Of a stretch of DNA of 61,476 nt, positions 22,975-56,267 are shown one piece after another. The position numbers and the translations under genes are program-made. The stretch lies in IMG/VR virus record IMGVR_UViG_3300035670_000213, positions 1 through 61,476 of that record. One strand, written 5' to 3'. Source of the stretch: a virus. Under the pieces are notes generated by a model. The model saw nothing but the letters and a program-made list of their open reading frames with translations. It was not told where the DNA came from and did no database searches. How positions within the stretch are numbered: position 1 is the stretch's first letter; each line of letters starts with the position of its first letter.

Positions 22975-23439
22975 TTAGTCTTCGGCAAGTTTACGGAAAT
23001 ACTCAAGCGACTCATCTTCTTCTTCGGTATCTTCCGAAGAATTCCAAGGCACTTCAGTAGTCTTTGTCTCCACCTTCGGTGCTGGCTTTGCTTCTTTCGC
23101 AGGTCCAGCCGATACTGGAGGAGTAGAACCAGACTTGATTCCAAGGACACGATCAAGACGAGCAGCAAGTTCTTCGTAAGTCTTGAAATTCTTAGGATCA
23201 TGGAATTCTGATAGATTATACAACGAATTCCAAACTTCCTCAAGCTTCTTGTCATCACCGTCTAGTAGTGGACATTGATTCTCAAATGAAGAATTATCGT
23301 AGTTAGGATAGCCTTCGACTCGCTTAATCTTCAAGCGGAAGTTTGCACCCTGCCAGAAATCAAATGGATCAATTGCAGTATCACCCTCGAATACAGGCTT
23401 CATTGCTTCTTGAATCTTTTCGAAGATTTTCTTACCATA
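22975..23439 (-). CDS. 32: gene 32 exon 2: single-stranded DNA-binding protein, carboxy part
   Basis: 154 residues starting YGKKIFEKIQEAM; the next conserved block FDFWQGANFRLKIKRVEGYPNYD is the gp32 DNA-binding core (given in part: GANFRLKIKRV, GYPNYD). The end is Pro/Ala/Lys-rich and then strongly acidic (EDTEEEDESLEYF), the protein-interaction tail of T4 gp32. It has no proper start codon of its own; the junction residues LFR|YGKK read straight across when the intron 23440-24586 is removed. Both exons together give 298 residues against 301 in T4. Confidence 0.93.
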   Translation of the reverse strand, partial: YGKKIFEKIQEAMKPVFEGDTAIDPFDFWQGANFRLKIKRVEGYPNYDNSSFENQCPLLDGDDKKLEEVWNSLYNLSEFHDPKNFKTYEELAARLDRVLGIKSGSTPPVSAGPAKEAKPAPKVETKTTEVPWNSSEDTEEEDESLEYFRKLAED

Positions 23440-23517
23440 CATTATGTTCACCTAAATTCGTTATTTTTAGGCTGTAGTTTTGTTAAACCACTACTTTACG
23501 TCTCCGTAAAGAACAGA

Positions 23518-24492
23518 CTATATCATCATTTCAGATTTGTTGATATTTAAAATCGAGTCTGAAAGTTGGGCATTTCCATTCACTTGAATGTACTCCCCTT
23601 CGGGATAGTCGTTGAACCTTTCGCTTCGCTTAGCGACTTGGCTGCTGATTGTCTCTATCAATAAATTTTTAGACCGTTCTCTATCCTTTGAATTTCCATC
23701 AGCCCAAACCACACAAATGACATTGAATCCTTGTTTTATGGATTCACGAAACTTCAATTTATTAGTTTCAAGGTGATTCATTAAAGTGAATAACGATTTA
23801 ACTTCAATTAAAGTGTTCATGTGTGGTATGTATATATCGGGATGATATGTATGTAATTTATCATCAATTCCGATATATTCTACTTTTGGTATATTACCAT
23901 TATCAACAACAATATCAATAGGATTGAGTATATCAATCAACACATCTAATACTCTATCTTCATACCCTTGGATTTGGTATTCCATCCCATTAAGAATATA
24001 TGATTTATTTCTATAGGTATTTCTTTTCAATCCAATTTCGGTATAAATTCTCTTCTTTTCTTCTGCATCCATTTTTGCATATCGTTCGAGCATCTTTTGT
24101 CTCATATGTTCTCCATATGAAGTACCAACATTTCTCGAAACAGTTTCCATCCGTTTTTTGTTAATAACTTGTATATCATTATTAGCAAATCTAGAAGCTA
24201 TCATTTTATTTACGATTTCATCTTTTTCTTCTTGGGTTTTACCCAAAAACGGACCTTTATGTATACCAGATTTCGAACTACAATTTATCGAACAATACTT
24301 CCTATATGCGAATTTCACAAAAGGTATATCACAACCACAAATCGCACAAAACCCCTCATCAGGTAGTTTGTAATGTTCGTCATAATATTGTTTCTTATCA
24401 ATATTATGTTTTTTTAGTAATCTCACAATAGTAATTTTATTATGATACTTACCATCTAGTTCAGAAAAGAATTTTTTATTGTTGTTGTTCAT
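23518..24492 (-). CDS. intron-encoded homing endonuclease (PD-(D/E)xK-like)
   Basis: 324 residues. CAICGCDIPFVKFAYRKYC with C-x2-C...C-x3-C (about 48-72) is a zinc finger; GKTQEEKDEIVNKMIASR is a NUMOD-like helix. YEDRVLDVLIDI and, later, YHPDIYIPHMNTLIEVKS give an E...P-D...E-x-K nuclease core like VSR-related homing enzymes. It is contained wholly in the gene 32 intron and presumably cuts intronless gene 32. A perfect late promoter (24569-24576) stands 77 bases upstream. The stop is within the intron core. Confidence 0.85.
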   Translation of the reverse strand: MNNNNKKFFSELDGKYHNKITIVRLLKKHNIDKKQYYDEHYKLPDEGFCAICGCDIPFVKFAYRKYCSINCSSKSGIHKGPFLGKTQEEKDEIVNKMIASRFANNDIQVINKKRMETVSRNVGTSYGEHMRQKMLERYAKMDAEEKKRIYTEIGLKRNTYRNKSYILNGMEYQIQGYEDRVLDVLIDILNPIDIVVDNGNIPKVEYIGIDDKLHTYHPDIYIPHMNTLIEVKSLFTLMNHLETNKLKFRESIKQGFNVICVVWADGNSKDRERSKNLLIETISSQVAKRSERFNDYPEGEYIQVNGNAQLSDSILNINKSEMMI

Positions 24493-24568
24493 GATAGCGA
24501 TTGAATAGATTGTGGTTTTATTGCTTAACGAGAGTTTCCAGCAATTAACCCAATTTTATTTCCGCTAT

Positions 24569-24576
24569 TATTTATA
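24569..24576 (-). promoter_or_regulatory. T4 late promoter TATAAATA in the P1 loop of the intron
   Basis: Perfect consensus on the minus strand inside the loop of P1, upstream of the endonuclease ORF. It would allow late expression of the endonuclease from an unspliceable, 5'-truncated transcript. Confidence 0.75.
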
Positions 24577-24586
24577 AGAAAAATTA

Positions 24587-25018
24587 ACGGAACAGGAAAA
24601 CCTTTCCTTCATTCTGCGGATTCTTAGGATCAGAAATCACATAAATGTTAGAAATATACTGCTGCTTACGCTTACGCTTACGAACAATTTCTTTATTCGC
24701 CTCAATACCAGTTGCCCACAATTCCGAGTTCATTTCACTAATCTTATCCTGCTTGCCGATTGTTGTTAGTGAATTTTCGATATACCATCCACCCGGACCC
24801 TGAAATGAGTGCGAAAACAGTGTGATCCATGGTAGCTTATCGTCCTTACCTGCTGGTAGAAAACGAAACAATGCGGTGCCATTTCCGGTCTTTTCGTCGA
24901 TTGGTTGGGACCAAAAACGATCATCCTGGTACTTATTACCACTCGACATCTTATCTAGTTCTGCTACTAGGTTTGTTAGATTTGCCTTTGACTTCTTCTT
25001 TAGATCTGCGAAATTCAT
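24587..25018 (-). CDS. 32: gene 32 exon 1: single-stranded DNA-binding protein, amino part
   Basis: 144 residues. MNFADLKKKSKANLTNLVAEL resembles the gp32 cooperativity domain (in part LKKKSKANL), followed by DDRFW, TALFRFLPAGKD and PGGWYIENS..TTIGKQD. T4 gp32 holds zinc through Cys-Cys-Cys-His; this copy lacks an evident Cys cluster in the matching stretch. gp32 coats single-stranded DNA at the fork and binds gp59 and UvsY, both encoded upstream. AAGGAT lies before ATG, and the gene before it stops at the adjacent base. Confidence 0.93.
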
Positions 25019-25374: not shown

Positions 25375-25995
25375 TTAATTTAAGGCTTCTTTCATCAATC
25401 TTAGTATCTTCTTTCTATCCGGTAATTTACTAACAATAAAAGGATGATATCTGTTCATGAGAGAGAATGACTCAATCCAAATCGGATCTGCATTGAATTT
25501 TTGATTTATTTTGTGTGTGAATCCGATAACCGAATCCAGACACATGAACGTTTCAATCGCTATCTCTTTTCTTATTAAGAATCTAAAAATAATAGGGTGT
25601 CCGTCTGTGATCTTGAATATCTCGGATAGATCTATATCCGATCTAAGACAATATTCTCTGATATAGGATAAATCTTTCTTGAATGAATAATCAAACGCCT
25701 CGTAGTATCCTAACCATTTGAGGTATCGATCTTCATTGTCTTTCGTCAACAAATCCTTAACCCAGAAATCTCGATTATGTATTTGTTCTACTAGTAGTTT
25801 ACCAAGAAATTTATCTCTACCGAACTTAACGGCTAACTTATCGAAATAATATCTATCTTTTCGCTTCTCGAAAGATCCGACCGATGCCTTTGTCTTTCCT
25901 CCATATTTGAAAAAATCATAGGTATTGCCTTCTGCGAAGTGAAACTTGAAAGCCAGATAAGTTACATATGCATCATATCCGGTAAAGTCACTCAT
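25375..25995 (-). CDS. 59: helicase loader gp59-like
   Basis: 206 residues, T4 gp59 has 217. YDFFKYGGKTKASVGSFEKRKDRYYFDKL (in parts YDFFKYGGK and FEKRKDRYYF) is the most conserved gp59 region; the helical rest matches in size. gp59 loads gp41 helicase on gp32-coated forks. Gene order 32-59-33 is as in T4. Four-base overlap with gp33 gene. Confidence 0.85.
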   Translation of the reverse strand: MSDFTGYDAYVTYLAFKFHFAEGNTYDFFKYGGKTKASVGSFEKRKDRYYFDKLAVKFGRDKFLGKLLVEQIHNRDFWVKDLLTKDNEDRYLKWLGYYEAFDYSFKKDLSYIREYCLRSDIDLSEIFKITDGHPIIFRFLIRKEIAIETFMCLDSVIGFTHKINQKFNADPIWIESFSLMNRYHPFIVSKLPDRKKILRLMKEALN

Positions 25996-26264
25996 AGTGG
26001 CAACGATCTTCCGTTATATTCTTTCTTGAGTAATCTGAGTTCTCTAGCAGAAGCTTCAATCTTCGATCTTAGAGAAGAAGGTATAATCTTGGATATCGCC
26101 ATAGGATCGTAATTATTCTTCTCACAGAAATGAGTCGTGGCTTCGAGATAATTCATGTTGAACTTATCGACTAACTCCGTCACTGATTGAAGAATGTCTT
26201 CGGGTTTAAGTATAATGTCTTCTATAGATGGTAAATCGTTTTGTATCATTTGTGTAAGTATCAT
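25992..26264 (-). CDS. 33: late transcription co-activator gp33-like
   Basis: 90 residues. FNMNYLEATTHFCEKNN and then IIPSSLRSKIEA match the RNA polymerase flap-binding and neighbouring core of T4 gp33 (MSYLEATTAF in T4). gp33 links RNA polymerase to the sliding clamp and is needed for late transcription, in agreement with the TATAAATA promoters in this window. ATG is six bases after TATCAT. Confidence 0.85.
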   Translation of the reverse strand: MILTQMIQNDLPSIEDIILKPEDILQSVTELVDKFNMNYLEATTHFCEKNNYDPMAISKIIPSSLRSKIEASARELRLLKKEYNGRSLPL

Positions 26265-26635: not shown

Positions 26636-28045
26636 TTACTTCTCCAGGTCTACGTTCACTATCTTGTAATTGAAGTTCTCTTGAACATATATCTTAGCTC
26701 TCTCAAGAAAGTGCTTCATCGAGAAATTGGTTTTGTTCTTGTACTTCAGATCATCAACGATATCAAACAGTATCGCTGGTCCTATCTTATTTATAGACAA
26801 TCTGAGTACTCTACCGATTGATTGAAGTACTCTTATCTTTGATTTGGAAGGATGGGTGAATATGATATTCTGGAGTGACGGAATATTAATACCAGTAGAA
26901 AATATCTGAGAAGAAGCCACGATAATTCCATTATCAATAGAGTTTATTTTGATTCTTATATCTTCACGAATATCTACATCAGTTCCGCCATAGATGAAAT
27001 AAACTGGTCTATCTGTATATTTCTGTATGAGATTGTATAGTATTTCGCCGTGAGTTTCTACTCTTGAGAACAGAACCAAGGTATTTCCTTTGGCACTCGC
27101 AGCTAATTTGGCTATGAATTTGTTTCTTTTATCATTAGAAATCAAAAACTTTACTTCATCTTCGTAGGTGAAATCTTTCGCCGCTTTTCTGGAAGCGTCG
27201 GAATATGAAAGAACTAGTACATTAATCTTGAAGTCAGATAACTGAGATTTGCTGATTAGATCGGCAGTTGTTGTGAATTGTTTCGCCTTACCGAATATTC
27301 CTTCTAGTTGTAATTGATGAATCTTTTCACCAGAAAGAGTTCCGGTGAATCCGTGCCTGAATCTCGCATTAACGCATTTATCGAATAATTTAGATACTTC
27401 TTTGGCAGAATACAAATGACATTCATCACCAATAATTGTTTCAACATCTTCGAAGTAACTCAGTGGTTTATCATATAAACTCTGCCAAGTACTTATACGA
27501 ATGCGTTTGTTTTCTCTCTCCATCCCAGAATATATCCTGGTTACTTTAGAAGAATGATCCCAATCGGGAAAATAATCCCCGATATCCGAATACAATTGTT
27601 CTACTAGCGAGGTGGTGGGGCAAATTAGAAGAATATTTCCTTCTGTGTTCTCGTAATAAAACTTAATTAGAGAAGATATTATGAAAGACTTACCGGAATT
27701 ATGATGAGTCAACCCAGATAGAATATACGATTCATGATCCGCATCGACAGTGAAATCGATCCAATCGTTATTGGGTTTTGGTGTTATTTTAGTTACAGTC
27801 TTAGATGAAATTTGATCTCCAATAGAGAATGAATCAATAGTTCTCCATTCTTCATTATCATCCAGAATTAAATGCTTAGTTGACCCGGTTAGAATAGTTC
27901 CATCATTAAATTCTAATTGAATACCTGGGGTGTTCTTTTTATATGCATCTATAACAGATTCCCAACCAGTTTTTGTGAATACTTTCGGTTTTCCGCCAGA
28001 TTTAACTAGGTCGTATAGTTCGTTTAAGGTTATTGTTGTTCTCAT
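26636..28045 (-). CDS. uvsW: UvsW helicase, carboxy part preceded by carboxy half of a split intein
   Basis: 469 residues from ATG 28045 (GAGA before it). Residues 1-116 are intein: block B TILTGSTKHLIL near 50-61, then VDADHESYILSGLTHHN with the terminal HN (blocks F and G). Residue 117 starts the extein, SGKSFIISSL, the second half of the Walker A loop. It continues with IIGDECHLY (DExx), FTGTL and QSIGRVLR (motif VI) of an SF2 helicase. After splicing to the 29204-29710 product the enzyme has about 489 residues (T4 UvsW 503). UvsW unwinds R-loops and branched DNA. Confidence 0.93.
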   Translation of the reverse strand: MRTTITLNELYDLVKSGGKPKVFTKTGWESVIDAYKKNTPGIQLEFNDGTILTGSTKHLILDDNEEWRTIDSFSIGDQISSKTVTKITPKPNNDWIDFTVDADHESYILSGLTHHNSGKSFIISSLIKFYYENTEGNILLICPTTSLVEQLYSDIGDYFPDWDHSSKVTRIYSGMERENKRIRISTWQSLYDKPLSYFEDVETIIGDECHLYSAKEVSKLFDKCVNARFRHGFTGTLSGEKIHQLQLEGIFGKAKQFTTTADLISKSQLSDFKINVLVLSYSDASRKAAKDFTYEDEVKFLISNDKRNKFIAKLAASAKGNTLVLFSRVETHGEILYNLIQKYTDRPVYFIYGGTDVDIREDIRIKINSIDNGIIVASSQIFSTGINIPSLQNIIFTHPSKSKIRVLQSIGRVLRLSINKIGPAILFDIVDDLKYKNKTNFSMKHFLERAKIYVQENFNYKIVNVDLEK

Positions 28046-28066
28046 AATTCTCAAAAATTCAATTTT

Positions 28067-28074
28067 TATAAATA
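28067..28074 (+). promoter_or_regulatory. T4 late promoter TATAAATA for the uvsW-gap endonuclease
   Basis: Perfect consensus on plus, 88 bases before the endonuclease ATG. It faces a minus-strand TATAAATA at 28144-28151. Confidence 0.7.
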
Positions 28075-28110
28075 ATTAATGCGGTTAGATTATTGTAGCG
28101 CAATAATCAA

Positions 28111-28164
28111 CAATAGGATAGTATATTGCTGTCCCGCAAATAATATTTATAGGATAGTATAATG
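28111..28164. repeat. 13-bp direct repeat in the uvsW gap
   Basis: ATAGGATAGTATA occurs twice, near 28113 and 28150, in the short space between uvsW C-half and the endonuclease start. It may be a regulator site or a scar of endonuclease insertion. Confidence 0.55.
28144..28151 (-). promoter_or_regulatory. T4 late promoter TATAAATA for the uvsW C-half
   Basis: Perfect consensus on minus, about 100 bases before ATG 28045. It gives the C-half its own late transcript although it is cut off from the N-half by the antisense endonuclease gene. Confidence 0.7.
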
Positions 28165-29223
28165 TTTAAACAACAATATTTAGAAAAGTTGAAAACACAT
28201 TTTAATGATGATGTAATACAACACTTATCACAAAAAGACACTAAGTTCATTAGATCGTTAATAGGGTTTAAAGATAACCTTAAAAATAATTGTGGATATG
28301 AATATGACACTAAGTCGATGAATATAGATTTAATCGAAGCCATTAAACATGATTTTAAGATATATAAAGATTCATTGATTGCCAACAATAAGAATGAAAA
28401 AATAATAACTGAAGAAAGATTTATTGTTTTTCTCAGAGATAAGATACTTGCAAAAGAACTTTATATTAAGTTTTGTATTAAGAAAACAAATAAAATGCGT
28501 GAAGTTGTAACAGAAAATCCACTATTATGTGATACTTCTCTGAATGGTTTTATCGCAAGAAATGGGGTTGAAATTGGAACAGAGAAATACTACACACACC
28601 TCAAGAATAAAAGAGAATCTAGTTTGAGGAGAATTTCTGGATGGATGAAGAAAGGTTATAGTGAAGAAGAATCTAAGATAATGCTTTCTAAACACCAAAC
28701 AACATTTTCTTTGGATTTATGTATTAAAAAATATGGATATGAAGTTGGTGTTCGAGTATGGAAAGAGCGACAAGATAGATGGCAAGCCACACTCAATAGC
28801 AAAAGTCCTGAAGAAATTGATGCTATTACCAGATCAAAAGTAACCAATCGACCTGGAGGTCCATCGTCAAAACCAGAAAAAGAATTATATGACATATTAT
28901 GTAGATCGTTTATAAATTTGGAACAACAATTCGTTCTTAGAAAAGGTAAAACTAGATTTGTATATGATTTTAGGTTTAACAATAAGTTAATAGAATTTAA
29001 TGGAACATACTGGCATTGTGATCCTAGAAAATACGAACCAGATTTTTTTAGAAAAGATTGCAAACTTTATGCTAAAGAGATTTGGGAAAAGGATAAAAAC
29101 AAAACAAATTTAGCCAAGGAAAATGGATTTGATGTTCTTGTTGTTTGGGAACTGGATTTCAAACAAAACAAAGAAGAGGTTATTAAGCAATGTATCAATT
29201 TCTTCAAGTGTCCCAAGGATTAG
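28162..29223 (+). CDS. free-standing VSR-like homing endonuclease in split uvsW
   Basis: 353 residues, opposite in orientation to uvsW. Residues about 110-235 hold repeats of the form L-x-x-C/F-I-x-x-Y/N-G-x-E-x-G (SLDLCIKKYGYEVGVRVWKE). The carboxy part GPSSKPEKELYDIL, then RFVYDFRFNNKLIEFNGTYWH and VLVVWELDF (in parts) is the VSR-like PD-(D/E)xK core common to endonucleases found between split-intein halves. Its last 20 bases overlap the 3' end of the uvsW N-half gene in convergent orientation. Confidence 0.9.
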   Translation: MFKQQYLEKLKTHFNDDVIQHLSQKDTKFIRSLIGFKDNLKNNCGYEYDTKSMNIDLIEAIKHDFKIYKDSLIANNKNEKIITEERFIVFLRDKILAKELYIKFCIKKTNKMREVVTENPLLCDTSLNGFIARNGVEIGTEKYYTHLKNKRESSLRRISGWMKKGYSEEESKIMLSKHQTTFSLDLCIKKYGYEVGVRVWKERQDRWQATLNSKSPEEIDAITRSKVTNRPGGPSSKPEKELYDILCRSFINLEQQFVLRKGKTRFVYDFRFNNKLIEFNGTYWHCDPRKYEPDFFRKDCKLYAKEIWEKDKNKTNLAKENGFDVLVVWELDFKQNKEEVIKQCINFFKCPKD

Positions 29224-29710
29224 GTTTAGTTCTCAATTTATGAAGTAGCTTAATATCATCTTCAGAAAGTTCAACATCAATTTGGGTGTCTGGGTGCAGA
29301 CACCCTGTGACTGAAACGACAATAGATCTTTTGCTACAGATACAATTCTTTAACCCATCAATCTGATAATCTCTGGCTTTAATCTCTACCCCACCAGAAA
29401 ATACTTTATTGGTTTCTAAGAATTTATCGGCCTGATCTTCAGAGAATCCTTTGTTATCGAAATCTTGATCGAAGTCGTAATCATTATCTTTCGCATATGA
29501 TTTGATGTAATGTGCAAGACCCTTACCGATTGTATTCGTTCTCTTATTGAGTAATCTTGCATACCCATCCCAAAGTTTCTTTTTGTAGATAGGCATATAT
29601 TTTGCACCAGGAACTTCGAAACTCAAGAGTTCATATAACTCTTGAATAATTCCTGGTTCGGCTTCTACAACGCAATGCGTTTCGTTTAATGATCTTAGGT
29701 ATATTTTCAT
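29204..29710 (-). CDS. uvsW: UvsW helicase, amino part followed by amino half of a split intein
   Basis: 168 residues. The first 136 match the UvsW start (MKIYLRSLNETHCVVEAEPG, GAKYMPIYKKKLWDG, ARDYQIDGL), ending in SIVVSVTG, the first half of Walker A. Residue 137 is Cys, the intein residue 1 (CLHPDTQIDVELSED), and only 32 intein residues follow before the stop: block A only. Cys1 and the C-half HN|S complete a class 1 intein. The short N-intein is the atypical split type. A perfect late promoter and a 6-bp hairpin precede ATG. Confidence 0.93.
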   Translation of the reverse strand: MKIYLRSLNETHCVVEAEPGIIQELYELLSFEVPGAKYMPIYKKKLWDGYARLLNKRTNTIGKGLAHYIKSYAKDNDYDFDQDFDNKGFSEDQADKFLETNKVFSGGVEIKARDYQIDGLKNCICSKRSIVVSVTGCLHPDTQIDVELSEDDIKLLHKLRTKPNPWDT

Positions 29711-29730: not shown

Positions 29731-29738
29731 TATTTATA
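29731..29738 (-). promoter_or_regulatory. T4 late promoter TATAAATA before uvsW
   Basis: Perfect consensus on minus, 20 bases before ATG 29710; T4 uvsW is also late. Confidence 0.8.
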
Positions 29739-47545: not shown

Positions 47546-49648
47546 ATGGATAAAATTTATACTAATATACAGTCTTGGGGTAACACCCTATATATACGAT
47601 ATCTAGATGGTGGAAAAAGAGGTCAAGAAAAAGTTACTGATTTTCATCCCAGAGTTTGGATTCCTCTCTCGGATAAGAATAAACAAACTAGTACATTCAC
47701 TACTATTTCCGGATATCCTGTTGTAGAATTCGATGCCGGGAATATTACGGACACGAGAGAATTTATCAAAAGAAATCGTGATGTTGATAACTTCTCTGTA
47801 TATGGAAACATACAACCAGAATACCAATGGATTTCTCGGAATTGTGAAGGAACAATTGACTGGAAGATTGGTGATCTTGTTATTGCTTATATCGATATTG
47901 AAACTACATGTGAGAATGGATTCCCTGATATTACAGTGGCCAACGAAGAAGTTAATGCCATTACAATTGGTTTTTCTAACTTAGAAAAAAAGATTATCTT
48001 GGGTTGTGGGGAATACAATAAGACCTTACCTGGGAGTGTTTATGTGAAATGTTCTTCCGAAGAGAATCTACTCGAAGAATTTATTAAGATCTGGAAGTCG
48101 AATTATCCTGATATTGTTTCGGGCTGGAATGTTAAATTCTTCGACATTCCTTATCTCGTGAATAGAATCAATAGGTTATTCGGCGAGAATAAAGTGAAGG
48201 CACTTTCTCCCTGGAAAATAGTGAGAGAAAAGACGGTTGAAATTATGGGTAAGACGCAAATGACTCATGATTTATTCGGGATATCGATTTTGGATTATCT
48301 TGATCTGTATAAGAAGTTCACTTATTCGAATCAGGAATCATATAAGTTAGATCATATTGCATCGGTTGAGCTAGGCGAAAAGAAGTTAGATTATTCTGAA
48401 TATGGATCGCTACATCTTCTATATAAGATGGATTGGGAAAAATTCATCGAATATAACGCAAAGGACGTTAATCTTGTTGTTGCACTCGAAGCGAAGATGA
48501 AATTAATCGAATTGGCTGTTACAATGGCATATGATGCCAAAGTTAACTTCGCAGACGTTTTCTCTCAAGGTAGAATGTGGGATGTGATTATATATAATCA
48601 TCTTCTTTCTAAGAATATAGTTATTCCTGACAAACAAGATCATATGCAGGAATCTATTGAGGGGGCTTATGTCAAAGATCCTAAGCCTGGATTCTACGAA
48701 TGGGTTGTTTCATTTGATTTAACTTCGTTATATCCTCATCTAATCATGGGTGGTAATTTTTCACCGGATACCATCGTAGATAAAGTCGTGAATGTGAGAA
48801 TTGATGATCTTGTGAATAAAACTACCGATCTCTCTAAGTTGAAGGAATTCGATTTATCGATGTCTGCTACTGGTCAGTTATTCAGAAAAGATAAAAAAGG
48901 CTTCTTGAATGAATTGATGGAATGGATGTTCGCACAACGTAAAGAATACAAGAAAAAGATGATTGACTCGCAGACACAATTAGAAGAAGCGAAGAAGAAG
49001 GGACTGCCGACAAAAGAAATCGAGAACGATATATCGAAGTACAAGAATCTTCAGATGGCCAAGAAAATCGCCTTGAATTCTGCATATGGCTCAATTGCAA
49101 ATCGTTATTTCCGATACTATGACAAAAGAATTGCCGAGTCAATTACTGTATCTGGACAATTAAGTATCCGGTGGATTGCCCGAAAGTTAGATGAATACCT
49201 CAATAAGTTATTGAAAACAGATAAAGATTATGTCATAGCAATAGACACTGATAGTGTAGTTGGTGATACTCAAATTTATGTTAATGGTAATAAGACTACA
49301 ATCTCAGATTATTATGAAAGCATTCCAGATAGCAACTTAATTAAGCGAGATATATTGAACGAATCTTTCGTTAAACAAATAGATACGAATGATGTTTCTT
49401 ATGGTTTAGATAGAGATGGCATTTGTGTAAGTAAATCCATCAAATATATTATGAAACATAAAGTCGAAAAGAAGATGTTCAAAATAACTGTTGATGGAAA
49501 ATCTGTTATTGTTACAGAAGATCATTCGGTTATTGTTAAACGAAATGGAGAATATATTTCAATTAAGCCTTCAATGATCTCAATGGATACAGACACCTTA
49601 GTTTTTATAAATACTACTGAGGTATCTAATGTCAAAGAAAATAAATGA
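47546..49648 (+). CDS. 43: DNA polymerase gp43, amino part followed by amino half of a split intein
   Basis: 700 residues: 569 of family B polymerase and 131 of intein. Exonuclease motif YIDIETT near 115-121, motif A SFDLTSLYPHLI near 390, motif B KKIALNSAYGS near 507. Motif C is cut: the extein ends AIDTD (49252) and Ser 570 begins the intein, SVVGDTQIYVNGNK, so residue 1 is Ser instead of Cys. Block B is TEDHSVIV. Spliced to the 50677 product it restores DTDS-VYLN and gives about 838 residues (T4 898). Confidence 0.95.
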   Translation: MDKIYTNIQSWGNTLYIRYLDGGKRGQEKVTDFHPRVWIPLSDKNKQTSTFTTISGYPVVEFDAGNITDTREFIKRNRDVDNFSVYGNIQPEYQWISRNCEGTIDWKIGDLVIAYIDIETTCENGFPDITVANEEVNAITIGFSNLEKKIILGCGEYNKTLPGSVYVKCSSEENLLEEFIKIWKSNYPDIVSGWNVKFFDIPYLVNRINRLFGENKVKALSPWKIVREKTVEIMGKTQMTHDLFGISILDYLDLYKKFTYSNQESYKLDHIASVELGEKKLDYSEYGSLHLLYKMDWEKFIEYNAKDVNLVVALEAKMKLIELAVTMAYDAKVNFADVFSQGRMWDVIIYNHLLSKNIVIPDKQDHMQESIEGAYVKDPKPGFYEWVVSFDLTSLYPHLIMGGNFSPDTIVDKVVNVRIDDLVNKTTDLSKLKEFDLSMSATGQLFRKDKKGFLNELMEWMFAQRKEYKKKMIDSQTQLEEAKKKGLPTKEIENDISKYKNLQMAKKIALNSAYGSIANRYFRYYDKRIAESITVSGQLSIRWIARKLDEYLNKLLKTDKDYVIAIDTDSVVGDTQIYVNGNKTTISDYYESIPDSNLIKRDILNESFVKQIDTNDVSYGLDRDGICVSKSIKYIMKHKVEKKMFKITVDGKSVIVTEDHSVIVKRNGEYISIKPSMISMDTDTLVFINTTEVSNVKENK
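49606..49613 (+). promoter_or_regulatory. T4 late promoter TATAAATA inside the gp43 N-intein
   Basis: Perfect consensus, 15 bases before the endonuclease ATG with GAGGT between; it lies in the coding sequence of the last intein residues. Confidence 0.8.
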
Positions 49649-50696
49649 AGACGATATTAAGCTTAAATTGAATCAAAATTTTGCGATGTCCGATGAAGAT
49701 GCTGCTCGAATTATAGATTTCAGTAAAAATTACTCTGGTAGTCTTAATTCTATTGTAAAACATCTGGATTATTTACATACAAAACCGACTGAATTGTGCC
49801 CAAATCTTGTTGATCGCTATTTAACAATCAAAAGTCTAAAAAAAGGCATAACATTGTATAATTTTAGATTAAAACATGGTGATGAAATCGGTACAAAGAA
49901 GTTTGACGAGTATAGATTAAAACAATCAATAACAAATACATTCGAGTATAAACAACAAAAATATGGTTGGACAAGAGATCAATTTGATGAATACAATAAA
50001 TCACGTGCAGTAACAGAAGAGAATTGTATTAGGAGACATGGGGTAGAAAAGGGGAAGGATATATATAGAAAATATTGTGAAAAACAAAGATATGTTGGGG
50101 TTGCTCTTGATTATTTTATAGACCTCTATGGACAAGAAGAAGGCACAAGAATATATGAATATTGCAATAAAAGTAAAGCACACACATTAGATAATTATAT
50201 AAAGAGATATGGTGATGATGGTGTGGAGAAATTTGAACAATATATATCAAACCACTCGGTTACGGGATACTCCAAGTCTTCACAAGAGTTTTTTGTTGCA
50301 TTATATAATAACTACTACCAAAACAAAACAAATAAAATTTATTTTGCAACCCACAATAAAGAGTTTGGTATTTTAGATACGAAATCCGGAACATACAGAA
50401 AATATGATTTTGTGGACATTGACTCTAAAACTATTATAGAGTATAATGGTGATTATTACCATGCTAATCCTAAAATTTACAGACCCGATGATGTCATTTC
50501 ATTTCATAATGGTATGAAAAAAACAGCAAAGGACATATGGAAAAATGATGAAGAAAAATATGATCTAGCAAGGCAACGTGGTTACCAAGTCATATATGTT
50601 TGGGAATCTGACTGTAATGATGATATGAAAAGTGTAATAGACAGATGTGTGAGATTTTTGGAAGAGGTTAATAATTATGCATGTAAAAGAGAGTAA
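49629..50696 (+). CDS. free-standing VSR-like homing endonuclease in split gene 43
   Basis: 355 residues. About 70-215 consists of repeats such as ENCIRRHGVEKGKDIYRKYC and LDNYIKRYGDDGVEKFEQYI. The nuclease core is YRKYDFVDIDSKTIIEYNGDYYHANP (in parts YDFVDID and IIEYNGDYYH) and VIYVWESD. It overlaps the N-half by 20 bases at its start and the C-half by 20 bases at its end. It probably cuts intein-less gene 43 near motif C. Confidence 0.9.
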   Translation: MSKKINEDDIKLKLNQNFAMSDEDAARIIDFSKNYSGSLNSIVKHLDYLHTKPTELCPNLVDRYLTIKSLKKGITLYNFRLKHGDEIGTKKFDEYRLKQSITNTFEYKQQKYGWTRDQFDEYNKSRAVTEENCIRRHGVEKGKDIYRKYCEKQRYVGVALDYFIDLYGQEEGTRIYEYCNKSKAHTLDNYIKRYGDDGVEKFEQYISNHSVTGYSKSSQEFFVALYNNYYQNKTNKIYFATHNKEFGILDTKSGTYRKYDFVDIDSKTIIEYNGDYYHANPKIYRPDDVISFHNGMKKTAKDIWKNDEEKYDLARQRGYQVIYVWESDCNDDMKSVIDRCVRFLEEVNNYACKRE

Positions 50697-51609
50697 AGAT
50701 TATATTATAGAAGATTTGGGTGTACAAGAAGAATATGTTTACGATATAGAAGTTGAAGATGTGCATAATTTCTTTGCCAATGATATCCTTGTGCATAATT
50801 CGGTGTATCTGAATCTCAATGATCTAGTCAAGACTTTTATCAAGAACAAATCGAAAGAAGAAACCATCAACATCTTAGATAAGATATGCGAAGAACGACT
50901 CGTTCCATTCATCGATAAATCATATGAAGAATTGGCAGATTATATGAATGCTTATTCACAGAAGATGATTATGAAGCGAGAAGTTATTGCAGATCGTGGT
51001 ATCTGGACTGCGAAGAAGAGATATATCTTAAACGTACATGATTCTGAAGGCGTAAGATATACAGAACCAAAGTTAAAGATCATGGGAATCGAAGCCGTTA
51101 AATCTTCCACTCCTGCATTCTGTCGGACGAAGATTAAAGAAGCACTCAAAATCATGATGACTAAGGATGAAGCCGACTTAATCAATTATATCGAAGAAGT
51201 AAAATCTGAGTTCTTCGGACTCAGACCTGAAGATATTGCTTTCCCTAGAGGAGTCAGTACACTTCATTCATATTCTAATTACGATACGATCTATACCAAA
51301 GGAACTCCTATTCACGTCAGAGGATCTTTGTTATACAATAAGATGATTAAGACAAAGGAACTAGACAAGAACTATTCAATAATCAATGAAGGTGATAAGA
51401 TTAAGTTCTTGTATCTAAAAGAACCAAATATCATTCGGGAGAATGTTATATCCTTTCCTTCAATTCTACCTACGGAATTAGGGCTTCATGAATATGTCGA
51501 TTATCAAACTCAATTCGATAAATCATTCATCGAACCACTTTCTATTATCCTGAAGGCGATTGGATGGAATCATGAACGAAGAGCTTCGCTGGATTCGTTC
51601 TTCGACTAA
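50677..51609 (+). CDS. 43: DNA polymerase gp43, carboxy part preceded by carboxy half of a split intein
   Basis: 310 residues: 41 intein and 269 extein. YVYDIEVEDVHNFFANDILVHN (in parts YDIEVEDVHNF and ANDILVHN) is intein blocks F and G, with HN|S at the junction. The extein starts SVYLN, completing motif C, then holds KKRYILNVHDSEG (thumb/KxY region) and the end typical of gp43. GAGG precedes ATG inside the endonuclease gene. Confidence 0.95.
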   Translation: MHVKESKDYIIEDLGVQEEYVYDIEVEDVHNFFANDILVHNSVYLNLNDLVKTFIKNKSKEETINILDKICEERLVPFIDKSYEELADYMNAYSQKMIMKREVIADRGIWTAKKRYILNVHDSEGVRYTEPKLKIMGIEAVKSSTPAFCRTKIKEALKIMMTKDEADLINYIEEVKSEFFGLRPEDIAFPRGVSTLHSYSNYDTIYTKGTPIHVRGSLLYNKMIKTKELDKNYSIINEGDKIKFLYLKEPNIIRENVISFPSILPTELGLHEYVDYQTQFDKSFIEPLSIILKAIGWNHERRASLDSFFD

Positions 51610-53110: not shown

Positions 53111-54439
53111 ATGAATATTGAACATGTTATCCTGAAGAACCTCATACACGATGAAGAATATGTAAGATGTACAATCCCGTTCATTAAACCGGAGTATTTT
53201 TCCGATACGAATGACAGGACAATCTTTAAACTTATCTCTAACTTTGTATCAGAATACAATACTAGACCATCAATTGAAGCCATGAAACTCATGGCTTCTG
53301 AGTCTAAGCGAATTACTATTGAGAACTCCGATGAAATTTGTAATTTGTTGGATAGTTGGTCAGAACGAGATGGGTCTAAGTTGGAATTTCTCATTACAGA
53401 AACAGAAAAATTCTGTAAAGAAAAAGCAATCCACAATGCTATATTAGAGTCGATCAAGATTATATCTGACGACAAAGACAAACGTGAGAAAGGTGCGATT
53501 CCTGAAATACTCAAAGATGCCTTGGCTGTTTCGTTTGATCCTAATGTCGGGCATGATCTCCTGGACAATGCCGAAGCCAGATATGATTTTCATCATAAAA
53601 CAGAAGAACGTATTCCTTTTGATATTCAGAATTTAAACCTCATTACATCAGGTGGATTGCCACGTAAAACATTGAACATTATTGTGGGTGGAGTCAATAC
53701 AGGAAAATCACTCGTAATGTGTCATATGGCTGCATCGAATTTGTTGATTAACAAGAATGTTTTGTATATAACATGTGAGATGGCAGAAGAGCGAATCGCC
53801 GAGAGAATTGATGCGAATCTATTGGATATCACAATGGATACCTTGAAGAGCATATCTAAGAAACAATTCTTAAGGTTGGTTGATGGACTCAAAGACAAAA
53901 CAACAGGTAAATTAGTAATCAAAGAATATCCCACATCTACTGCCTCGGCATCGAATTTTCGATTCTTATTACATGAACTAGAGTTAAAGAGAAACTTTAT
54001 TCCGGATATCATTTATATTGATTACATGAATATATGTGCATCATCCAGAATCAAGAACAACGGTAATGCAAACTCATATACATTAGTGAAAGCTATTGCC
54101 GAAGAATTGAGATCATTGGCTGTCGAAATCAATCGACCGATAGTTTCAGCAACACAATTTACGAGATGTCTTTCTACAGAAACTTTGGTCGAAACCCCAG
54201 AAGGAAGTAAGAAAATATCCGAATTATCTATTGGAGATAAGATTTTAGGTACTAATGGATTCGTTGATGTTATTAATGTATACGAGAAAGAAATTACTAA
54301 AGTATATAGAATTACAACTAAATCTGGAAAACAAATTGAATGTTCATCTAAGCATGTCTTTCCAACGAAAAGGGGAATGATTTCCATAAATGCTGGCCTA
54401 ACTGTTGGTGATATATTATTTACTGCTACTCATGAGTAG
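53111..54439 (+). CDS. 41: replicative helicase gp41, amino part followed by amino half of a split intein
   Basis: 442 residues: 352 of DnaB-type helicase and 90 of intein. Walker A VGGVNTGKSLVM near 193-204, IIYIDYMNIC (Walker B) near 298. The extein ends SATQFTR and Cys 353 (54167) begins CLSTETLVETPEGSKKISEL, with block B CSSKHVFP. The intein half closely resembles the N-half of gp41-1, a known fast split intein from phage metagenomes. Spliced length about 467 (T4 475). Confidence 0.95.
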   Translation: MNIEHVILKNLIHDEEYVRCTIPFIKPEYFSDTNDRTIFKLISNFVSEYNTRPSIEAMKLMASESKRITIENSDEICNLLDSWSERDGSKLEFLITETEKFCKEKAIHNAILESIKIISDDKDKREKGAIPEILKDALAVSFDPNVGHDLLDNAEARYDFHHKTEERIPFDIQNLNLITSGGLPRKTLNIIVGGVNTGKSLVMCHMAASNLLINKNVLYITCEMAEERIAERIDANLLDITMDTLKSISKKQFLRLVDGLKDKTTGKLVIKEYPTSTASASNFRFLLHELELKRNFIPDIIYIDYMNICASSRIKNNGNANSYTLVKAIAEELRSLAVEINRPIVSATQFTRCLSTETLVETPEGSKKISELSIGDKILGTNGFVDVINVYEKEITKVYRITTKSGKQIECSSKHVFPTKRGMISINAGLTVGDILFTATHE

Positions 54440-54452
54440 CAGTAAATAAATT

Positions 54453-54460
54453 CATAAATA
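54453..54460 (+). promoter_or_regulatory. late promoter element (CATAAATA) before the gene 41 endonuclease
   Basis: 7 of 8 match, five bases before ATG 54466; the endonuclease transcript would be leaderless. Confidence 0.6.
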
Positions 54461-54465
54461 GATAT

Positions 54466-55809
54466 ATGGATGTAGAAAAAATACTAAAAAAACTAAAAAG
54501 AAAAAAAGATGATTTGACAATATCTCAGTATAACGAAATTGTTATGTTTTCACAATGTATTACAAAAAACAATGATAAAATATCAGATTCGTATATAGTT
54601 AGAACATTATCTAGACAACTAGATTTAAATCTGACTAATTTATATGAAAAATATGTTACATATATAAAAACAATAAAACCTAAGGATTCGACTTCGTTAC
54701 ATTCATTTGTTGTTAGATTTGGTGAGCAGGGTAAAGCAATGTATGATGAGCGCATAAAAAGCTGTCCCCCGAAGCTATCATCATACATAGAGAAATATGG
54801 TGAAGATGAAGGTAAAAAGGCATTCGACCAATATAAAAAGTCTAAATCGATGTCATTAGATAATTGTATAAGAAGATACGGTTTAGAATTAGGTACTATA
54901 AAATATAAAGAATATTGGGAAAATACATCATTTGGAATGAGTAAAGAGAAGTTCAAAAAGAGATTTGGTCTTGAATGGGAAAACGAATATAATAAATTTG
55001 TTGATGCTTGTAAAGGCAGAAAAAATCAATTAATTGAGAAATATGGTGAAATTGTTGGTAACGAAATATGGAATGATATTCAAAATAAAAAAGCATTATC
55101 ATGCAGTAAAGATGTATTTACAACAAAATTGACTGATCAAGGATATTCAATCGAAGAAATTGCTGATTTAGTGAACAACAGATGGAATACATTATCTAAA
55201 GAATCGTTTATAAGAAGATATGGTAATGATGATGGTGTTATAAAATATGACGAGTTCTGTATGAACAATCGAAAAAATAATAGATTATGTAGAGAATATT
55301 ATGACAATATGTCACTTTCTGATGACGAGATAACAAGTAAGATATTAGATGAACAAAAGAGAATGAATTCAAATATCAAAAAAAGCAGCAAAGCAGCATA
55401 TAATTTATTAAGGCCAATAGCAAATAAATTCATTGAAACTGGTTTATGTGATTCATATAATTTGGATGATGAGTTTAGAATTGATTTAAGTAAGTATGAA
55501 AATGAAATTTCAGGTAATCATTTTTACTATTATGATCTAACATTCACTGATTTAAATTTGATTATTGAATATCACGGTAAAATGTATCATGAAGATGTTG
55601 ATTATTTATCAACAACAAATCTTTCATACGAATATTTTGAAAATAATTTTAATAAAGATTTATTTAAGAAATTTGTAGCAGAAAGGCGTGGATTTACGGT
55701 TATTGTAGTCAGAGAATGGCTCTTAAAGACAGATAAATTGGAATTATTCAAATTTATCAAAAACACATATAATATTGAGGAAAATCAATGGGTACATCTA
55801 TTTGTTTAA
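54466..55809 (+). CDS. free-standing VSR-like homing endonuclease in split gene 41
   Basis: 447 residues, the largest of the three. At least six repeats of about 25-40 residues with the core (C/S)-(I/F)-x-(R/K)-(Y/F)-G-x-(E/D)-x-G are present between about 75 and 285 (for example LDNCIRRYGLELGTIKYKEYW). The nuclease core is YYYDLTFTDLNLIIEYHGKMYH (in parts YDLTFTD and IIEYHGKMYH) and TVIVVREW. Its end overlaps the C-half start by 22 bases. Strongly AT-rich compared with the flanking gene 41 halves. Confidence 0.9.
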   Translation: MDVEKILKKLKRKKDDLTISQYNEIVMFSQCITKNNDKISDSYIVRTLSRQLDLNLTNLYEKYVTYIKTIKPKDSTSLHSFVVRFGEQGKAMYDERIKSCPPKLSSYIEKYGEDEGKKAFDQYKKSKSMSLDNCIRRYGLELGTIKYKEYWENTSFGMSKEKFKKRFGLEWENEYNKFVDACKGRKNQLIEKYGEIVGNEIWNDIQNKKALSCSKDVFTTKLTDQGYSIEEIADLVNNRWNTLSKESFIRRYGNDDGVIKYDEFCMNNRKNNRLCREYYDNMSLSDDEITSKILDEQKRMNSNIKKSSKAAYNLLRPIANKFIETGLCDSYNLDDEFRIDLSKYENEISGNHFYYYDLTFTDLNLIIEYHGKMYHEDVDYLSTTNLSYEYFENNFNKDLFKKFVAERRGFTVIVVREWLLKTDKLELFKFIKNTYNIEENQWVHLFV

Positions 55810-56267
55810 TTGAAGATGATATTGTTTCTATCGAAGAGTTGCCGCAAATGTGTGAAACAATTGATATTACTGTTTCTGGTGACAATTTGTTTGTTGCTAA
55901 TGATATTCTCACTCATAACTCTGGGATGTCTAATTCGGATGTCGAAATGACAGATATTTCCGAATCTATTGGTACTGCTCAGACTGCCGATCTCGTTATT
56001 GCCTTAATCAATACCGAAGAACTAGAAAAACTCGGTCAGATCATGATTAAGCAATTGAAGAATAGATATAATGACGTAACAAAAAATAAGAAATTTCTTG
56101 TTGGTATCGATAGATCTAAGATGAGAATATATGATATAGGTAATGTTACGATTGATGGTGAATATGGAATCCAGGATAACGTTCCCGATTACGGAAAGTA
56201 TGATGATTGGAATGATTATTCCGATTCACCCAAACAATCTAGTAAGTTTTCTGATTTCAAATTTTGA
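55788..56267 (+). CDS. 41: replicative helicase gp41, carboxy part preceded by carboxy half of a split intein
   Basis: 159 residues: 44 intein and 115 extein. ETIDITVSGDNLFVANDILTHN (in parts IDITVSGDNLF and ANDILTHN) are blocks F and G, with HN|S. The extein SGMSNSDVEMTDISESIGTA continues the helicase motif 4 region directly from TQFTR, and a gp41-type acidic end follows. GAGGAAA precedes ATG inside the endonuclease gene. Confidence 0.95.
   Translation: MGTSICLIEDDIVSIEELPQMCETIDITVSGDNLFVANDILTHNSGMSNSDVEMTDISESIGTAQTADLVIALINTEELEKLGQIMIKQLKNRYNDVTKNKKFLVGIDRSKMRIYDIGNVTIDGEYGIQDNVPDYGKYDDWNDYSDSPKQSSKFSDFKF

Follow-up and report, generated by a model that had tools for sequence, protein, structure and literature searches.

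A group I intron in gene 32 of an uncultured T4-like phage, with a probable late promoter in its P1 loop, and the family of gene 32 introns to which it belongs

Gene 32 of an uncultured T4-like phage is interrupted on the minus strand, between R144 and Y145, by a complete group I intron of 1,147 nt (positions 23440–24586), as structural and comparative analysis of the DNA confirms. The window, by which we mean the whole stretch of 61,476 nt that was analysed, is a single contig of 61,476 bases (IMG/VR record IMGVR_UViG_3300035670_000213) and probably a fragment of a genome. We think it likely that the intron is mobile and self-splicing, and that its endonuclease is expressed late from TATAAATA, a late-promoter motif in the loop of P1.

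The spliced product of the interrupted gene matches the Pfam gp32 family (2.8e-47), and the best relatives of this homologue are cyanophages. Exon 1 (24587–25018, minus strand, as are all features of the intron) holds codons 1–144 and ends in FLFR (CGT, at 24587); exon 2 (22975–23439) begins with YGKK (TAT, at 23439) and holds codons 145–298 and the stop codon. Read unspliced, exon 1 terminates at a TAA formed by the first three bases of the intron. Codons 144 and 145 are uninterrupted in 80 of 80 gp32 relatives from viral contigs (the best 80 of 597 confirmed), which fixes both splice sites; contiguous exon 1 was the query, so this sample disfavours genes with an interrupted exon 1. Codon 144 has T as its last base in 20 of these same best 80 of 597; in 54 it codes for Lys and so cannot supply the U required ahead of the 5′ splice site.

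The preliminary description of this DNA, made from the letters alone, had proposed a group I intron here, and evidence of several kinds now upholds it. The first is a match to the Rfam model RF00028 (Intron_gpI) at 23494–23792, with 59.2 bits against a cut-off of 50. This covariance-model search recovered the 3′ half but misplaced the 5′ half into the intron ORF, the two halves being some 850 nt of ORF apart; the actual 5′ half of the core lies at 24553–24531, and an Rfam search of the isolated 5′ leader returned nothing relevant. The second is the ordered chain P3-P4-P5, found a single time in the 94-nt leader but never in 100,000 dinucleotide shuffles; a 6-bp P1 appears somewhere in 7.6% of shuffles, so that P1 alone is weaker evidence. 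The third is covariation. A core-pattern scan of contigs gave at least 121 matches on at least 119 contigs, and 50 cores could be aligned well, namely 45 of the 46 short-L5 siblings listed (L182 was left out) and five introns with their inserts removed, including that of the window. The structure of the window intron pairs 85.1% of cells in this alignment, versus 68.9% in shuffles; P3 is paired in 99.0% with covariation at five of its six pairs, and P7 is invariant. P5 (51.5%) and P8 (52.5%) are poorly aligned in the 50 cores.

The individual helices can be placed as follows. P1 pairs UUCCGU at the end of exon 1 (24587–24592) with the internal guide sequence GCGGAA (24560–24565) and has a U-G pair at the splice site, and the intron ends in G (23440), both as first described. 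P3 joins UUGGGU (24548–24553) to GCCCAA (23566–23571), with support from shuffles, minimum free energy (MFE) folding and covariation, and P4 joins UUGCUG (24539–24544, then GAAA) to CAGCAG (23642–23647), with support from shuffles and covariation. P5 pairs CUCU (24531–24534) with AGAG (23682–23679), the ORF lying within L5. The element earlier called P7-like, GATATAGTC (23524–23516), does contain the 3′ strand of P7 (UAGUC, 23520–23516), whose partner is GACUA (23606–23610); 3′ of that 5′ strand stand two small hairpins (23577–23605), which we take to be like P7.1 and P7.2. P8 (UUUCAGA/UCUGAAA) spans 23529–23564, and the GNRA-capped P9 of the preliminary description is CUUUACG-GAGA-CGUAAAG with a GAGA tetraloop (23494–23511). 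By eye, a P10 is possible between AUA beside the guide (24566–24568) and UAU of exon 2 (23439–23437), as is a P9.0 between UGUUC (23515–23511) and GAACA (23449–23445). In the MFE fold of the ORF-excised RNA, P1, P3–P6 and P9 form unaided, and in free folding of the uncut RNA (24606–23425) P3 and P4 still form. An alternative local hairpin is also open to the 5′ strands of P3 and P4 (24500–24556, z = −3.0) and may keep them in place while the 3′ half is still to be transcribed; it is absent in the three relatives tested (L300, L145 and L150).

The ORF (23518–24492) encodes 324 amino acids and, by Pfam match, a predicted homing endonuclease of the PD-(D/E)XK type. It matches DUF7487 (PF24308) at 5.7e-15 with 56.3 bits (cut-off 27), and all 14 of 14 members of this family of homing endonuclease genes (HEGs) match the same model at E ≤ 0.01. 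In an AlphaFold model with a mean pLDDT of 67.6 (about 75–90 over residues 161–260), the catalytic part aligns with Vsr (Z 9.7) and I-Bth0305I (Z 8.2), which suggests a Vsr/I-Bth0305I-like enzyme. Foldseek gave no match for the model at E ≤ 0.001, and a sequence search of the PDB gave no convincing one. The reading frame runs from L5 into P7, where it stops, and its final ~55 codons double as ribozyme core between the 3′ strand of P5 and P7. Its start has no evident Shine-Dalgarno sequence. The unpaired value of the AUG is 0.53–0.54 or 0.18 in the long RNA (two start points) versus 0.58–0.61 in the late RNA, and no hairpin of the T4 kind, sequestering the ribosome-binding site and clearly different between the long and late RNAs, was found. 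An I-TevI-like operator was likewise rejected: over 20 nt, homing site and leader agree at 11 positions at best, against a shuffled mean of 12.3; both of these controls of T4 introns thus went undetected in the window intron. Among cultured phages the window HEG matches five records. The two examined, Vibrio phages Va1 and SRILMA, carry a homologous DUF7487 nuclease, the nearest in cultured phages, that is ~30% identical along most of the protein and, unlike that of the window, free-standing and intergenic, adjoining gene 23 with no intron. The HEGs of L300 and L145 have no match at 1e-5 in 50,697 cultured-phage records.

The motif TATAAATA is indeed in the P1 loop (24569–24576), and the earlier reading of it as a late promoter holds up as a probable one, of T4 type, on the evidence of placement and of gene 33. 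That evidence has to be weighed against the explanation that intron and HEG are real while the motif is a chance product of an A/T-rich loop, the HEG being read from gene 32 pre-mRNA only. The motif is not over-represented in the window (nine found, 8.9 expected), it turns up in 2.4% of shuffled 94-nt leaders, and there is no obvious ribosome-binding site for a dedicated HEG mRNA, all of which suits chance. Its placement does not: six of the nine sites precede a same-strand ORF by no more than 120 nt, compared with 56 of 457 for 55 other permuted 8-mers (p = 2e-4, TATAAATA ranking first of the 56), and ATAAATA is placed upstream of ORFs in 12 of 23 cases versus 63 of 549. The form NATAAATA occurs within 150 nt upstream of four of the five HEG ORFs in the window, versus eight of the 81 other ORFs in a mechanical ORF list (p = 0.001); the fifth HEG has CATAAATA ~145 nt upstream, just outside the count, with a tRNA gene between. 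The window also encodes a homologue of the late-transcription coactivator gene 33 (25992–26264, minus strand; Pfam Trans_coact, 4.2e-19), which is present in ten of 11 relatives and in 14 of the 17 contigs that bear gene 32 introns. The gp45 family was found in one of the 11 relatives, below the cut-off, all of them being fragments. From T4 promoter-to-start spacing, the late RNA would presumably begin near 24563, inside the guide and 71 nt before the HEG start.

TATAAATA lies within 90 nt before P4 in one of 75 sibling introns among the matches listed, which were gathered with no selection for the promoter. A pattern search for TATAAATA upstream of a P4 motif found 56 contigs, of which a script assigned a full core to 16; having been chosen for the motif, they are uninformative on its frequency. 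By translation, those examined carry psbA, gyrase-like, terminase-like and capsid-like genes, among others. In psbA introns of four viral contigs (L232, L247, L266 and L275) TATAAATA straddles the junction at the 5′ splice site, with the 3′ core ~660 nt downstream. Two contigs (L233 and L242) have an intein-like C-terminus (VNHN-TTPGG) followed directly by a group I intron, maybe in a terminase gene. Elsewhere in the window, CATAAATA (54453–54466) ends just before the ATG of an HEG at 54466, and a late RNA from it would begin at or beside the start codon, that is, leaderless.

Among uncultured T4-like phages, introns turn up in gene 32 repeatedly. At least four of the core-pattern sibling introns lie in it (L114, L145, L150 and L196), and a scan by HEG alignment, in which the best 80 of 115 relatives were kept, added more: the best 16 (L312–L327) all adjoin gene 32 exons, as none of the other 64 listed do (three contigs were met under two labels, L312 being L145, L314 being L300 and L319 being L150). 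The site most often used, S1, falls within the zinc motif (CPV^C). L316 and L317 each carry a pair of introns, one at S1 and one at a second site, S2 (RVFL^YKFGKK), 6 nt upstream of the site in the window. The 13 HEGs from gene 32 introns make up one clade (98/99) in a tree of 23, and within it the window HEG pairs with the second HEG of L316 (100/97). The preliminary description had called introns in gene 32 unusual among T4-like phages; this agrees with passages of the literature (PMC2988022, PMC5107563, PMC3322345, PMC2993671, PMC3037559), among which are ones that name td, nrdB, nrdD and gene 43 as hosts, but does not hold for metagenomic T4-like phages, where such introns are many. In a search of viral contigs none had gene 32 with a TAA exactly at the window's site; L316 and L317, with their site 6 nt off, escaped it. 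Nineteen loci with HEG relatives (L084–L100, L002 and L003) showed no intron above the Rfam cut-off, in a scan that misses introns with a large L5 (it found two in five loci, four of which have gene 32 introns). L100 (4001–5130) has an HEG relative next to a distant homologue of gene 32 that runs on the opposite strand.

Late-promoter motifs recur throughout this family, in L5 before the HEG. Among the S1 rows NATAAATA is found there in 15 of 17 and exact TATAAATA in 12, and both S2 relatives have the late motif in the same place. Counted once per intron and contig, with L317 and L327 excluded as near copies, NATAAATA occurs in L5 in 15 of 17 introns versus 2.1 expected from mononucleotide shuffling, and exact TATAAATA in 13 of 17 versus 0.7; without L278, which was found by the promoter pattern, the counts are 14 of 16 and 12 of 16. 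On the P1 side the motif occurs in none of 17 family rows (0.4 expected), so the P1 position has no comparative support of its own, and the window alone in the family has the motif in P1 while lacking it in L5. A chance motif would account for the empty P1 loops of the relatives; it would leave the window without the promoter that nearly all of them have before the HEG. With its placement before ORFs in this phage, and before HEGs in particular, this makes chance an unlikely explanation, and a late promoter remains our preferred one.

Taking the P1-loop motif as a promoter, we infer splicing, promoter use and homing for the window intron along the following lines. Early and middle transcripts of gene 32 would include the 5′ splice site; in them P1 and the core would form, and splicing at that stage would remove the intron and give intact gp32. 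Later, an RNA polymerase of the T4 late type (gp33 is present; gp55 and gp45 are assumed) would initiate at TATAAATA, near 24563. Such an RNA would lack exon 1, the 5′ splice site and the first guide bases and hence could not undergo the first splicing step; carrying the 324-aa ORF, it would serve as the endonuclease mRNA. The endonuclease would then cut intron-less alleles of gene 32, into which recombination would copy the intron. Spliceable RNA early and endonuclease mRNA late, a temporal separation in the manner of T4, is the most likely outcome. The overlap of ORF and core should bring translation and splicing into conflict on any one RNA, which would favour a separate mRNA that cannot splice. 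The family promoter is in L5; the one in the window may have been relocated to the P1 loop or have arisen there anew.

The two promoter positions would not be equivalent. Late RNA in the relatives with L5 promoters would lack the 5′ strands of P3–P5 and so would have no core. That of the window keeps these strands, and in free folding P3 shifts, gaining extra pairs, and P4–P6 are kept. This predicted retention of the core would be the one real functional difference between a P1 and an L5 promoter, and the core-retaining RNA may remain active at the 3′ splice site. A stronger proposal, which we find doubtful, is that the late RNA cuts itself there, while the open complex in P1 hinders transcription of spliceable RNA at the late stage, the intron thereby timing the fall of gp32 synthesis. 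If so, the cut would release the HEG mRNA from exon 2. We met no P1 late promoter with a core-retaining, self-cutting RNA in the literature searched.

It is improbable that the intron is an immobile remnant in which HEG or ribozyme has decayed. A window-type intron was found on only one contig among the data searched, the P1-loop promoter likewise being seen on one contig, and some gene 32 introns have decayed: L114 keeps an 87-aa remnant of the ORF, and in L150 the HEG is split into two ORFs. In the window, however, the ORF is full length and keeps its QGYED, PD and EVKS blocks, and the core is intact. That there is no intron at all, a free-standing HEG having disrupted a gene 32 expressed as two pieces, is highly improbable: exon 2 could be translated alone into 155 aa from ATG TAT GGT after AGGTGA, and split genes are common in this phage, but the complete covarying core and exact exon junction oppose such a reading, and the ATG is missing from the nearest relative, L316. 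The AGGTGA...ATG closes the intron (23440–23456) in frame with exon 2, and by way of this ATG, which has no counterpart in L316, unspliced or late RNA could yield a 155-aa C-terminal piece of gp32.

Three other genes of the window, those for uvsW (26636–29710), DNA polymerase (47546–51609) and the gp41 helicase (53111–56267), are each broken in two. Their halves have split-intein-like ends and enclose a phrog_22677-type endonuclease gene, and they resemble the fractured genes reportedly published by Dassa in 2009. TATAAATA stands before each uvsW half (29731–29738 and 28144–28151) and, on the opposite strand, before the intervening endonuclease (28067–28074).

Group I introns, the HEGs they carry and late promoters ahead of these HEGs are already known. 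The T4 introns of td, nrdB and nrdD (with I-TevI, II and III) are, like that of the window, group I introns with HEGs and internal promoters, although they occupy other host genes and encode GIY-YIG or HNH enzymes. Passages of one article describe promoters of both the middle and the late class within the T4 introns, upstream of the endonucleases (PMC2988022); separate expression of the endonuclease is not in itself the novelty and has long been known. Closest to the window intron is the second gene 32 intron of L316 and L317, which shares P5 CUCU/AGAG, P9.0 UGUUC/GAACA and an HEG in L5 that is sister to that of the window (37–38% identity); unlike the window intron, it has TATAAATA in L5 directly before the HEG, and its P1, by eye, looks to be CCUU/GAGG. 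The CPV^C introns (L312–L326, L114 and L278) share the group I core, an L5 HEG of the same clade, the late-promoter motif and the T4-like context, and differ in their site in the zinc motif and in having the promoter in L5. The predicted catalytic fold of the HEG may be like that of I-Bth0305I and Vsr, with no sequence match to the PDB found. The literature searched, which took in few of the subscription papers, held no report of a group I intron in gene 32; neither the DUF7487 clade of gene 32 HEGs inside introns nor a late promoter in P1 was found in it.

These introns add an essential gene of replication and recombination to the known group I intron hosts of phages. Gene 32 has been invaded repeatedly, at three positions within 300 codons and sometimes twice in one gene, and the invaders belong to one lineage of apparently Vsr-like endonucleases. 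Because a late promoter recurs across the family, control of HEG timing through the late programme of the phage looks to be selected, and not a peculiarity of T4. The P1-loop version would offer a natural comparison for the effect of promoter position relative to the ribozyme.
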